A stretch of 64,000 nucleotides of DNA from Leptotrichia sp. oral taxon 498 (GTDB lineage: Bacteria; Fusobacteriota; Fusobacteriia; Fusobacteriales; Leptotrichiaceae), in NCBI RefSeq assembly GCF_002240055.1, contig NZ_CP016753.1, positions 1,240,001-1,304,000 on the forward strand. The letters are read 5' to 3'. Positions within the stretch are counted from its first letter, which is position 1. Every line of letters starts with the position of its first letter. This document shows positions 28,336 to 35,849 of the stretch, one piece after another. The position numbers and the translations under genes are program-made. The notes below the pieces were generated by a model, which was not told the DNA's origin, made no database searches, and saw only the letters and a program-made list of their open reading frames with translations.

Positions 28336-29241
28336 ATGAAAAATAAAGTTTTTAAATTTATTGGACTCTTAATTCTTATGATGGTGATTGTAAATGTTAT
28401 TTTGGCAATTGTAAGTACGGTTTTGCCGATTAATTTTGAATCGCCGAGTTCAGTTGTAGAGCCCCCGCATTATTTTAATTTTATTATCGGCAGCTTTAAA
28501 TTCTCGCTAAGTCAGACAGTATTAAATACTTGGGTTTTAATGCTTGTAATAATGTTCATTATAAATTTGGGGACAAAAAATGCAAGTGTAAAAAATCCAA
28601 GCAAAATGCAAATTATAATGGAAGAATATTATAATTTTATTGAAAATACATTTCTTACAACTTTTGGAAAATATAAAAAGAAATATATTCCATTTTTTGC
28701 GGCACTATTTGCCTTTATAATGTTTTCAAATTTATGTGGATTTCTATTTCCGTTTGTGATAATGATTTTAAAAGGACAGCATGGAATGGAAATAAAACCA
28801 TTTTTTAGAACGCCGACAGCTGATCCAAATACGACAATTGGACTGTCACTTGTAGTAATTGTTCTTTTTTTAACAGTTTCTATAAAAAAAGGCGGATTTA
28901 GAGCATATTTAAAATCGTTGTTTGAGCCAATGTGGTTTATGTTTCCGCTAAATATTGTTGACATCTTTTCAAAAGTTTTGAATACATCAATGCGTTTATT
29001 TGGGAATATGCTTGCAGGATTAGTAATCGTGGGACTTTTATACAGCCTTGTGGGGCATCAGTTGTTTCAGTCTATAACGAATAATTTATTAAAAGGAAAT
29101 TTCTCGTTCGCAGTGGGTTGGACAATGATTTTACAACTATATTTAGATTTATTTATAGGAATTGTTCAAGCGTTTGTCTTTACAGTGTTGTCATCCGTTT
29201 ATATCAGTGAAGGATTAGGCGAAGAAGAGGAAGATGAATAA
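28336..29241 (+). CDS. atpB: ATP synthase F0 subunit a
   Basis: 301 residues. Ion channel half of the F0 rotor-stator interface in the inner membrane. Essential stator arginine is in SMRLFGNMLAGLV (about 217-229), and the last helices WTMILQLYLDLFIGIVQAFV carry the conserved Gln. The ATG at 28336 lies 8 bp after GGAGG; the TTG just before it is less likely. The N-terminal part with PPHYFNFIIGSFKFSLSQTV is typical of fusobacterial and clostridial a subunits. Confidence 0.95.
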   Translation: MKNKVFKFIGLLILMMVIVNVILAIVSTVLPINFESPSSVVEPPHYFNFIIGSFKFSLSQTVLNTWVLMLVIMFIINLGTKNASVKNPSKMQIIMEEYYNFIENTFLTTFGKYKKKYIPFFAALFAFIMFSNLCGFLFPFVIMILKGQHGMEIKPFFRTPTADPNTTIGLSLVVIVLFLTVSIKKGGFRAYLKSLFEPMWFMFPLNIVDIFSKVLNTSMRLFGNMLAGLVIVGLLYSLVGHQLFQSITNNLLKGNFSFAVGWTMILQLYLDLFIGIVQAFVFTVLSSVYISEGLGEEEEDE

Positions 29242-29319: not shown

Positions 29320-29565
29320 ATGGCAGCAACAGCAGAAATCATTAATGCAGCAGCATTATTAGGAGCAGGAATAGCAGCAATAGGAGGAGTTGGAGCAGGA
29401 CTTGGGCAAGGAATTGCAACAGGATATGCAGTAGAAGCTATTTCAAGACAACCTGAAGCAAAACAAGATATTATGCAGACATTAATTACAGGATTGGCAA
29501 TTACTGAGTCATCAGCAATTTATGCATTAGTAATCGCATTCTTATTAATTTTCTTAAAAGGATAG
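29320..29565 (+). CDS. atpE: ATP synthase F0 subunit c, sodium-type
   Basis: 81 residues, two transmembrane helices around the RQPEA loop (43-47). The ion-site residues are Q30 in GLGQGIA and E63-S64 with Y68 in AITESSAIY. These correspond to Gln32, Glu65, Ser66 and Tyr70 of the Ilyobacter tartaricus sodium c-ring (known family fact), so this enzyme is predicted to use Na+. The ribosome binding site is TAGGAGG. It is followed, unusually, by the 443-codon gene at 29590 rather than by atpF. Confidence 0.95.
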   Translation: MAATAEIINAAALLGAGIAAIGGVGAGLGQGIATGYAVEAISRQPEAKQDIMQTLITGLAITESSAIYALVIAFLLIFLKG

Positions 29566-29589
29566 TTCTTATATTTTTAAAGAAAGGTT

Positions 29590-30921
29590 GTGAGTGTCAT
29601 AAATTTAAAAAAAATAACAATAGGATTGTATTTAATTACATTTTTTAATATATCTTTTGGAGTGGCAGTAAATAACCAAACACAAAAAAAATCTGAAACT
29701 ACAAAACCTAAAACAGTAACTCCAAAAAAAGGAACAGGAACGCTGAAAAAGGAGACTGGCGATAAATCAAAAGAAACAAAAGAGGTAACTAAGCAGACAA
29801 CTACAAAGAAAACGGCTGGAAGTACCCAAAAAAATGACACAAAAATTACAAAACCAGCACCAAAAAGTTCAGCTACAACAAAGACAAAATCTGTTAAAAC
29901 ACCAGCAAAAACAGTTGATAAAAAAGTAGACACAAAATCGATGCCAAAAACTTTAAATCCAGTAAATAATAAAAAGCTTCCTAAAATAATGGGAAAAAAG
30001 ACTTCTGATGAAAAAAATCCAGAAAATAAAAAGAATAACAATAAGTCATCTGGAAAAAAAACAACTGAGGGAAAGTCAAATAATAGTGGAATAAATAAAC
30101 CATCGAGTACTAAGGGTTTAAGTGATGTAGAGATAGGAAAAGATATAAATAAAACTAAGAAATCAATTGAAAAAGAGTTTTCTGGTAAAAAAGAAAATAT
30201 GAAAATTTTAGAGAAATCGCAAAAAATGGTAGATGATAAAATTGAAAAAGATAAACAAGTTGATAGGGTAAAAATAGATAAAATTACAAAAGTAAATCCT
30301 GAAAAAATATTGTCTTTCACTAAAAATTCGGAAGAAATTTTAGCAAGTGCAACTATGGTGTCAACTGAAAATTATAAAATTTTATTTACTGGAATTAATG
30401 AGGTCAATTCTGATGAAAGTAGTGAACTTACAAAATCTGATAAATTAAATACAAGTTTTGTTGCTGGTTTTCAGATAAAAAAACCAGAAATTGAACTGGA
30501 AAGCGTAAAAGTTTATTTGATTATATCTGAAAAAAGTGAAAAATTATTGATTTCTTCAAAAGTTCCAGAAAATAGAGTAAAGAGAGAAGAAAATAAACCT
30601 TTTGTGGAAGAATGGGGAACTGAAGTTGGTAAAAATTCTAAAATAAAAGGGTTTGGAAACGAGAAAGACCAAAACCCTGTCAGTTGGAATGGAGAATCGG
30701 ACATTATTGGTACAGTTAGTTTAAGAAATTTGTTAAAAGATAATAAAATTGATTTAGAAAAAGTAAAAATTTCTAAATTAAAAGATCTGTTTGCATTAAG
30801 CAACAAAAAATATCGTTATTTATTTAAGTTTGTGATAAAAGCTAAAGGAAAAGAAGAGGAAGTTATTTTTCAACCTGGTATTTTGAATATAAAATTAATA
30901 GGGGGTAAAAATATAAAATAA
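29590..30921 (+). CDS. Lys/Thr-rich exported protein inserted in the atp operon
   Basis: 443 residues, start GTG at 29590 by default because no ATG is near; the initiation site is uncertain. A signal-peptide-like segment KKITIGLYLITFFNISFG is followed by about 160 residues of low-complexity Lys, Thr, Ser and Asn, then a structured C-terminal region (about 235-440: SFVAGFQIKKPEIELESVKV, PVSWNGESDIIGTVSLRNLL, YRYLFKFVIKAKGKEEEVIF). No family was recognised. It lies 24 bp after atpE and 30 bp before atpF, on the same strand, where the atp operon normally has no gene. It could be a surface or periplasmic protein carried along by transcription. Confidence 0.65.
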   Translation: MSVINLKKITIGLYLITFFNISFGVAVNNQTQKKSETTKPKTVTPKKGTGTLKKETGDKSKETKEVTKQTTTKKTAGSTQKNDTKITKPAPKSSATTKTKSVKTPAKTVDKKVDTKSMPKTLNPVNNKKLPKIMGKKTSDEKNPENKKNNNKSSGKKTTEGKSNNSGINKPSSTKGLSDVEIGKDINKTKKSIEKEFSGKKENMKILEKSQKMVDDKIEKDKQVDRVKIDKITKVNPEKILSFTKNSEEILASATMVSTENYKILFTGINEVNSDESSELTKSDKLNTSFVAGFQIKKPEIELESVKVYLIISEKSEKLLISSKVPENRVKREENKPFVEEWGTEVGKNSKIKGFGNEKDQNPVSWNGESDIIGTVSLRNLLKDNKIDLEKVKISKLKDLFALSNKKYRYLFKFVIKAKGKEEEVIFQPGILNIKLIGGKNIK

Positions 30922-30951: not shown

Positions 30952-31446
30952 ATGAATGAAGGAGCAAAATTAGTAAATATTGATTTTACAATGGCTATTC
31001 AAATAATAAATTTTTTAGTATTAGTCTATTTTTTCACGCGGGCATTTTCAAAAAAAATTGGAAAAATTTTGGAAGATAGAAAAAAAATGGCGTTATCAGA
31101 AATGGAAATCGTTGAAAATGAAAAAGAAAAATTGGAAGAAAAAAAGAAAAATATTGAAAAGTTAAAAAAAGAATCCAAAAGACGTGCAAATGACATTTTG
31201 ATAAAAGCTGAAAGACAAGCTGATGAAAGAAAAGATCAAATTATAAATTTGGCTATGAATAACCGTGAAAGAATGATGATGAAAGCGGAAGCTGATATTG
31301 AAAAAATGCGACAAAAAGCTAAATTTGAGTTGCAAAAAGAAGTCGGAGAAATGGCTGTGGATCTTGCAGAAAAAATTATTAAAGAAAATATTGATAAAAG
31401 TCAAGATAAAACAATTGATAAATTTATTGATGGATTAGGAGATTAA
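30952..31446 (+). CDS. atpF: ATP synthase F0 subunit b
   Basis: 164 residues: one N-terminal membrane helix (about 14-32, MAIQIINFLVLVYFFTRAFS) and then a long charged coiled coil (DRKKMALSEMEIVENEKEKL onward). It forms the peripheral stalk linking subunit a to delta and alpha. The start ATG follows AAGGAGAAAAA. Four bp separate its stop from atpH. Confidence 0.92.
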   Translation: MNEGAKLVNIDFTMAIQIINFLVLVYFFTRAFSKKIGKILEDRKKMALSEMEIVENEKEKLEEKKKNIEKLKKESKRRANDILIKAERQADERKDQIINLAMNNRERMMMKAEADIEKMRQKAKFELQKEVGEMAVDLAEKIIKENIDKSQDKTIDKFIDGLGD

Positions 31447-31450
31447 AATT

Positions 31451-31975
31451 ATGGAAGACGAGATTGCAAAAACATATGCCAAAGCTATCTATGATATAGC
31501 AAAATCTTCTAATAAAATAGATGAAGTTCGAGAAGTGCTTAATATTTTAATTGAAAAATATTCAGAAGAAGAACAGTTTAGAAGAATTTTAGAAAATCCG
31601 ATAATTAAATTTTCTGAAAAGGAAGAGTTTTTAAAAAAATCTTTTAGTTTTGCTAGTGCAGAGTCAATTAAAGTGGTAAGATATATCATTAAAAAAAATA
31701 GATTATCTTCAGTAGCGAAAATAAAAGCTAAATTTTTGGAAATTTATTACAAGGAAAATAATAAACTTCCTGTGACAGCTATATTTGCAAAAAAATTATC
31801 AAATGAACAGGAAAAGAAATTAACAAAAAAATTGGAAAAAAAATACAATAAAAAAATTGTATTAAATTTAGTTGTTGATAAAAGTATAATTGGTGGAGGA
31901 ATCATAAAGGTAAACGATGAAATAATTGATGGTTCAATAAAAAATCAAATAAGCGATATGAAAAAAGTTTTTTAG
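31451..31975 (+). CDS. atpH: ATP synthase F1 subunit delta
   Basis: 174 residues of the OSCP/delta family: [20 protein letters not shown] at the N-terminus and the C-terminal signature [28 protein letters not shown]. It caps the F1 head and holds the peripheral stalk. The gene lies between atpF and atpA with 2-17 bp gaps, so it is tightly coupled. Confidence 0.92.
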
Positions 31976-31992
31976 AAATGGAGGTGCTTTTT

Positions 31993-33498
31993 TTGAAGAT
32001 TAAACCAGAAGAGGTAAGTAAGATAATTCGTAGCGAAATAGAAAATTACAAAAATAAAATTGATATTTCCAACACTGGAACAGTTCTCGAAGTTGGAGAT
32101 GGAATTGCTAGAATTTATGGATTAAGTGATGCTATGTCTGGAGAACTATTAGAATTTGAGAATGGTGCAACTGGAATGGCTCTAAATCTAGAAGAAAGCA
32201 ATATCGGAGCAGTTATTTTTGGAGAAACAATCGGAATAAAAGAAGGAAGTTTAGTAAAGGGAACAGGAAAAGTTGCACAAGTGCCTGCTGGAGAAGAATT
32301 ACTTGGAAGAGTTGTAGATGCACTGGGAAATGCTATTGATGGAAAAGGTGAAATAAAAGCTAGTAAATATATGCCAATAGAAAGACAGGCTTCTGGAATA
32401 ATAGCAAGAAAACCTGTAAGTGAACCGCTGCAAACTGGAATAAAAGCAATTGACGGAATGTTTCCAATTGGAAAGGGACAAAGGGAACTTATAATTGGAG
32501 ATAGACAAACTGGAAAAACAGCAATAGCAATTGACGCAATAATAAATCAAAAAGAAAATGACACGATTTGTATTTATGTTGCAATTGGACAAAAAAGATC
32601 GACAGTTGCACAAATTTATAGAAAATTAGAGGAAACAGGAGCGCTTGACTACACTATAATTGTGGCGGCAACAGCGTCAGAATCTGCACCGCTTCAATAT
32701 TTGGCACCATATGCGGGAGTGGCAATGGGAGAATATTTTATGGATAATGGAAAAAGTGTTTTGATAATTTATGATGATTTGTCTAAACACGCTGTAGCTT
32801 ATCGTGAAATGTCTTTACTGCTTAAAAGACCGCCTGGAAGAGAAGCCTTTCCTGGAGATGTATTCTATTTGCACTCAAGACTTCTTGAAAGAGCTGCAAA
32901 ATTAAGTGATAAATTGGGTGGTGGCTCAATTACGGCGCTACCGATTATTGAAACAAAAGCTGGAGATATTTCGGCATATATTCCAACAAATGTAATTTCG
33001 ATTACAGATGGACAGATTTTCTTGGAAACTGATTTATTTAATTCAGGATTTAGACCAGCGATAAATGCAGGAGTTTCTGTATCAAGGGTCGGTGGATCAG
33101 CACAAATAAAAGCGATGAAACAAGTTGCTTCAAAAGTGAAATTGGAACTTGCACAATATAATGAATTACTTGCGTTTACACAATTTGGTTCAGACTTGGA
33201 CAAAGCGACAAGAGATCAATTAAATCGTGGTTCTAAAATAATGGAAGTATTAAAACAAGGACAATACAGTCCGTATAAAGTGGAAGAACAAGTAATTTCA
33301 TTTTACTGTGTAACAAATGGATTTTTTGACGATGTTCCAACAGAAAAAGTTCGACAGTTTGAAAGAGAATTAATTGATGCACTTTCAAGCAAAACGATTA
33401 TTTTGAAACAGATTTTGGAGAAAAAACAGATTGATGATGAAATTAAAAATTCTTTAAATGACTTTATTCAAGACTTTAAAGAAGAGTATGTCTGGTAA
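31993..33498 (+). CDS. atpA: ATP synthase F1 subunit alpha
   Basis: 501 residues from a TTG at 31993. The in-frame ATG at 31978 is part of the GGAGGTG ribosome binding site, so the TTG ([12 protein letters not shown]) is preferred. P-loop GDRQTGKT lies near 170-177, and the signature [17 protein letters not shown] near 355-371. It is the regulatory, non-catalytic nucleotide-binding subunit of the F1 hexamer. Confidence 0.95.
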
Positions 33499-35824: not shown

Positions 35825-35849
35825 AGGAGTATTAATGTGCTCCTTTTTC
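35825..35849 (+). terminator. Terminator-like hairpin between atpD and atpC
   Basis: AGGAG (35825-35829) and CTCCT (35840-35844) flank a 10-nt loop, followed by TTTTTC. The stem is short, so partial termination or attenuation is more likely than a full stop. Confidence 0.45.

Follow-up and report, generated by a model that had tools for sequence, protein, structure and literature searches.

A Putative Exported Envelope Protein Encoded between atpE and atpF in Leptotrichia

Introduction

Bacterial atp operons are known to carry accessory genes in addition to those for the subunits of the ATP synthase, AtpZ and AtpI being examples. In the stretch of DNA analyzed here, 64,000 nucleotides from Leptotrichia sp. 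oral taxon 498 (contig NZ_CP016753.1, positions 1,240,001 to 1,304,000, called the window below; its genome is denoted G000), the operon reads atpZ-atpI-atpB-atpE-X-atpF-atpH-atpA-atpG-atpD-atpC, where X is a gene whose predicted product is rich in lysine and threonine. A literature search found no paper on extra genes in the atp operon of Leptotrichia or Fusobacterium.

A first-pass annotation of the window had singled out X as an exported-type protein in an operon whose order is otherwise nearly universal, with an implied significance for the ATP synthase. As discussed below, a highly conserved bacterial operon can evidently hold an unrelated gene, here for a probably exported protein, in lineages separated by the deepest split within the genus.

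Results and Discussion

The coordinates of the features considered are collected in Table 1. Gene X starts 24 bp past the stop codon of atpE (29565) and ends 30 bp ahead of the ATG of atpF (30952). Its 443-codon reading frame, its position between two neighbors that are both confirmed by Pfam, and its signal pattern, recognized by eye, all stand as first described. The chance of a 442-codon stop-free run at the base composition of the window is about 2e-20, and the frame and both termini are kept in three other species, with every indel being a multiple of three. Together with the dN/dS values given below, these results establish that the gene is real.

The GTG start codon had been called unusual, a description that we do not retain, GTG starts being common in bacteria. 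This codon is common to all three species of the window's clade, and the Shine-Dalgarno-like AAAGAAAGG precedes it in the two others as well (G006 and G012). The start is probable but not certain, and its placement may be off by a few codons, because the gap between AAAGAAAGG and the GTG is so short and because the start codon of the G001 orthologue, an ATG, falls in the alignment opposite a GTC of the window that lies two codons past the GTG. An antisense open reading frame of 247 aa (29577-30320, minus strand) overlies the Lys/Thr linker and is open also in G012. As an alternative gene it was rejected, since in G006 and G001 it does not stay open, whereas the sense frame of X does so in all four species, and it is probably a by-product of the AAA/ACA-rich codons.

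Table 1. Features of gene X, its operon neighbors and its homologues; positions refer to the window unless a locus is named.
Feature	Position	Strand	Evidence	Remarks
Shine-Dalgarno-like AAAGAAAGG	29579..29587	+	sequence	ends only 2 nt before the GTG of X
Gene X, exported Lys/Thr-rich protein (putative)	29590..30921	+	ORF, orthologues, purifying selection	443 aa; GTG start as listed
X, N-terminal signal peptide (putative)	29590..29664	+	sequence, composition; by eye	residues ca 1-25; cleavage after ...LYLITFFNISFG, before V; no lipobox Cys
X, Lys/Thr-rich low-complexity linker	29665..30345	+	composition, alignment	ca 227 aa
X, conserved C-terminal domain	30346..30918	+	alignment, AlphaFold2	ca 190 aa; beta-rich; YLFKFVIKAKG-EEVI-QP motif
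atpB (a subunit)	28336..29241	+	Pfam ATP-synt_A
atpE (c subunit)	29320..29565	+	Pfam ATP-synt_C	upstream neighbor of X
atpF (b subunit)	30952..31446	+	Pfam ATP-synt_B	downstream neighbor of X; own SD AAGGAG
atpH (delta subunit)	31451..31975	+	Pfam OSCP
Exported protein, L. hongkongensis JMUB5056 (G007; NZ_AP019846.1)	L069 4735-5400	minus		221 aa
Small Fusobacteriaceae lipoprotein	L133 4253-4798	minus	X-domain homologue	182 aa
Small Fusobacteriaceae lipoprotein	L132 1906-2499	plus	X-domain homologue	198 aa

Promoter-like sites in the atp region are no commoner than in shuffled sequences and none stands out at the boundaries of X. The sole terminator-like site of the region follows atpD (35825-35844), with none between atpB and atpD. 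Since no signal of either kind stands out at its boundaries, X is probably co-transcribed with the atp operon. A search for RNA families in the operon found none. Upstream of atpB, the Pfam matches to AtpI and AtpZ/ATPase_gene1 are weak. For atpB itself, the sequence makes ATG 28336 a likelier start than the listed TTG 28333. In the case of atpA the listed start is ATG 31978, but TTG 31993, with a GGAGG ahead of it at about 31979-31983, may be the true start (region 31978-32000). The c subunit carries Q30, E63, S64, S65 and Y68, a pattern that we take to fit the c-rings of Ilyobacter and Propionigenium, which bind sodium, and the ATP synthase of the window may thus be sodium-driven.

The protein encoded by X appears to be built from three parts. 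At the N-terminus, the pattern LKK, hydrophobic core and SFG/A was assigned by eye; judged in the same way, a basic start, a hydrophobic core and an SFG/AFG cleavage-like site are present in all five Leptotrichia members. The low-complexity region that follows is indeed rich in Lys and Thr, as had been noted: the linker contains 26% K and 14% T, has a net charge of +31 and a pI of 10, and its length varies from 173 to 259 aa among relatives. The C-terminal domain was modeled with AlphaFold2, giving a pLDDT of 69.1 and a pTM of 0.70 with five sequences and 73.8 and 0.74 with seven, which corresponds to moderate confidence. The model has a mostly beta core with two helices. When it was compared with folds in the PDB, the best matches were Ig-like domains, with an E-value of 0.03 and a TM-score of ca 0.3, which is not significant, and a viral library gave low TM-scores, with none passing an E-value of 0.001. 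An Ig-like beta-sandwich is no more than a suggestion.

Searches of Pfam, NCBIfam and PHROGs with X gave low-complexity or insignificant matches only, and a sequence search of the PDB gave no accepted match. Neither X nor its homologues had an accepted match in Pfam or NCBIfam, the families of ATP synthase subunits included. The C-terminal domain, first described as unknown, is thus absent from Pfam, NCBIfam and PHROGs, but it can now be placed in a family. Profile searches detected relatives in L. hongkongensis, in another genus of the Leptotrichiaceae (G021) and in two members of the Fusobacteriaceae (G069 and G072, incomplete assemblies that are 82% and 71% complete). The G021 relative is decayed: ca 40 residues of the C-terminal end are left, in a stop-interrupted frame (L070, ca 2129-2257) between argG-like and sucrose-hydrolase-like genes. 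Those of G069 and G072 are small lipoproteins, MKKKSLFLFFLVLLISSC... and MIKKIVVLSLFSLLLTSC..., of 182 and 198 aa, which match the X profile with E-values of 9.2e-6 and 6.6e-7. In reverse searches with single sequences, the four atp-operon copies and that of L. hongkongensis were matched at E-values of 1.5e-4 to 1.3e-3, and hhalign aligned the lipoproteins with the X family at a probability of 98.3%. The core common to both is Y-LFKF-IKA-G--E--I-QP, plus an upstream F-IKNP-I--E-VKV block. From these alignments, the C-terminal domain of X belongs to a small and patchy fusobacterial family that includes lipoproteins. These two distant relatives have a lipobox in place of the SFG/AFG-type signal. 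The X protein lacks any cysteine, and it therefore has the domain in common with the lipoproteins without being one.

Several weaker candidates were discarded. At the G080 locus we found an unrelated regulator-like protein, the match at G001:248292 falls in a frame full of stops that overlaps the gene of a ribosomal protein, and in G021:C48 and G022 only the signal and the Lys-rich part match. A phage or plasmid origin was likewise rejected, as tblastn of X and the lipoprotein gave no match in phages or plasmids and none in viral contigs, and a role as a defense system was dropped after a negative PADLOC result.

The distribution of X at the atpE-atpF site is narrow. It is found there in four of 13 species-level Leptotrichia genomes (G000, G006, G012 and G001), in the three orthologues on the same strand and in the same frame, whereas the other nine have an atpE-atpF spacer of 60-173 bp. 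Among 38 other fusobacterial atp loci, 35 have no gene at this site and the remaining three are the X carriers G001, G006 and G012, which bears out the nearly universal order. With three other species carrying X, the gene is clearly not absent from all relatives. In a genus tree built from eight Atp proteins, G000, G006 and G012 form one clade (clade A), while G001 lies in the sister clade B, within a subclade whose remaining members all lack X in the operon.

The simplest account of this pattern would be a single gain before the deepest split of the genus, followed by about two losses. A competing history, compatible with any function, is that two separate gains of X occurred at one and the same site, or that it passed from one species to another. 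G001 is the only one of ten clade-B genomes to have X in the operon, the nine empty spacers, all from this clade, show no remnant of X above shuffles (local alignment p 0.33-0.97), and homologues are sporadic elsewhere in the phylum. However, the insertion point is identical in both clades, the ancestral gain with its losses accounts for the tree, and a missing remnant is weak evidence because AT-rich spacers decay fast. We regard repeated gain or transfer as possible but rather unlikely.

Among the three species of the window's clade, the C-terminal domain evolves with a dN/dS of 0.13-0.17 and the linker with one of 0.30-0.45 (dS 0.5-1.4). Against G001 the values are 0.33 and 0.59, with dS near-saturated. 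The variable sites of the C-terminal domain are distributed over codon positions 1, 2 and 3 as 35, 31 and 75. X is taken to be a functional gene under purifying selection, and this selection means that it is not a chance insertion.

As to what X does, the explanation that we favor, with moderate confidence, is that it is an envelope protein, lineage-restricted and patchy in its retention, with a basic linker that would space the beta-domain from the cell wall and a gene that rides a constitutive operon. X would be translated from the atp polycistronic mRNA and exported by the Sec route with cleavage of the signal peptide, after which the mature protein would stay in the periplasm or envelope. 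Judging from charge alone, the basic, presumably disordered linker could lie along or span anionic wall or membrane polymers. It would hold the C-terminal beta-domain at a distance, a role that the lipid anchor may fill in the lipoprotein relatives. The location in the atp operon would provide steady, growth-linked expression and would not point to a function in making ATP.

Another option considered was a surface-exposed or secreted adhesin-like protein, in which a Lys/Thr stalk projects the beta-domain to bind host or bacterial partners. The architecture of signal peptide, long low-complexity stalk and beta-rich domain is consistent with it, as are the fast-evolving and length-variable linker, the patchy distribution and the Ig-like matches, weak and without significance as these are. 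This assignment is nevertheless doubtful. We found no known adhesin domain, and neither an anchor for the outer membrane nor an autotransporter beta-barrel or sorting signal; a stalk is missing from the homologous lipoproteins, and the low dN/dS of the C-terminal domain indicates conservation and not diversification.

It is also conceivable that X serves the ATP synthase as a periplasmic accessory factor, for example one that stabilizes or tethers Fo at the periplasmic face or tunes ion access, and that it owes its place between atpE and atpF to this role. Both clade A and G001 have kept the site, across the deepest split, and AtpZ/AtpI demonstrate that accessory genes can reside in atp operons. 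On the other hand, the nine congeners without X there have AtpB and AtpE that are 77-79% and 92-95% identical, and the domain homologues in G007, G069 and G072 are at non-atp loci. No atp genes were present near these relatives or the G021 fragment in the stretches read. The lipoprotein genes have as neighbors pflA and an ABC ATPase in one case and an FAD oxidoreductase and thiE in the other (named by eye), and so the relatives give no link to the ATP synthase. An action of X on this enzyme would be surprising if true, position being the single argument for it, and we consider the accessory role quite improbable. Even less credence is given to the more specific idea that X is a periplasmic partner, particular to this lineage, that would act on the outer face of the fusobacterial ATP synthase. 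The significance for the enzyme implied by the first-pass annotation is thus not borne out, nine of 13 Leptotrichia and all other Fusobacteria tested lacking X at the site and the homologues occurring at unrelated loci.

Finally, a recent neutral insertion or a decaying gene without function is the least probable reading of all: most relatives lack the gene and the stop-interrupted fragment in G021 shows that the family can decay, but X is intact in four species at a whole-gene dS of 0.5-1.2 with dN/dS well under 1, so that it is already contradicted by selection.

Conclusion

X defines a small, uncharacterized fusobacterial domain, probably of the envelope, that occurs in stalked, plain and lipid-anchored forms and is missing from the family libraries searched.

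The plain form is the L. hongkongensis protein, which, like X, starts with a putative signal peptide and whose C-terminal domain matches that of X (36-37% identity across the aligned region), including the motif YLFKFVIKAKG...EEVIYQP. It differs from X in having no Lys/Thr linker and in being encoded outside the atp operon, between fba and yebC. In several sister species of L. hongkongensis the latter two genes directly adjoin, and the linker-less paralogue is not upstream of yebC in its closest relative (G011). The lipid-anchored Fusobacteriaceae proteins are also exported, by their sequences, and have a homologous domain with 28-31% identity to that of X. Unlike X, they have a lipobox-cysteine lipid anchor, no linker, a shorter domain and unrelated gene neighborhoods. 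With atpZ and atpI, X has in common that it is a non-structural gene inside the atp operon. However, these two genes lie upstream of atpB and encode small membrane proteins, whereas the product of X is probably exported, soluble by sequence, encoded between atpE and atpF, and without sequence relation to AtpZ or AtpI.
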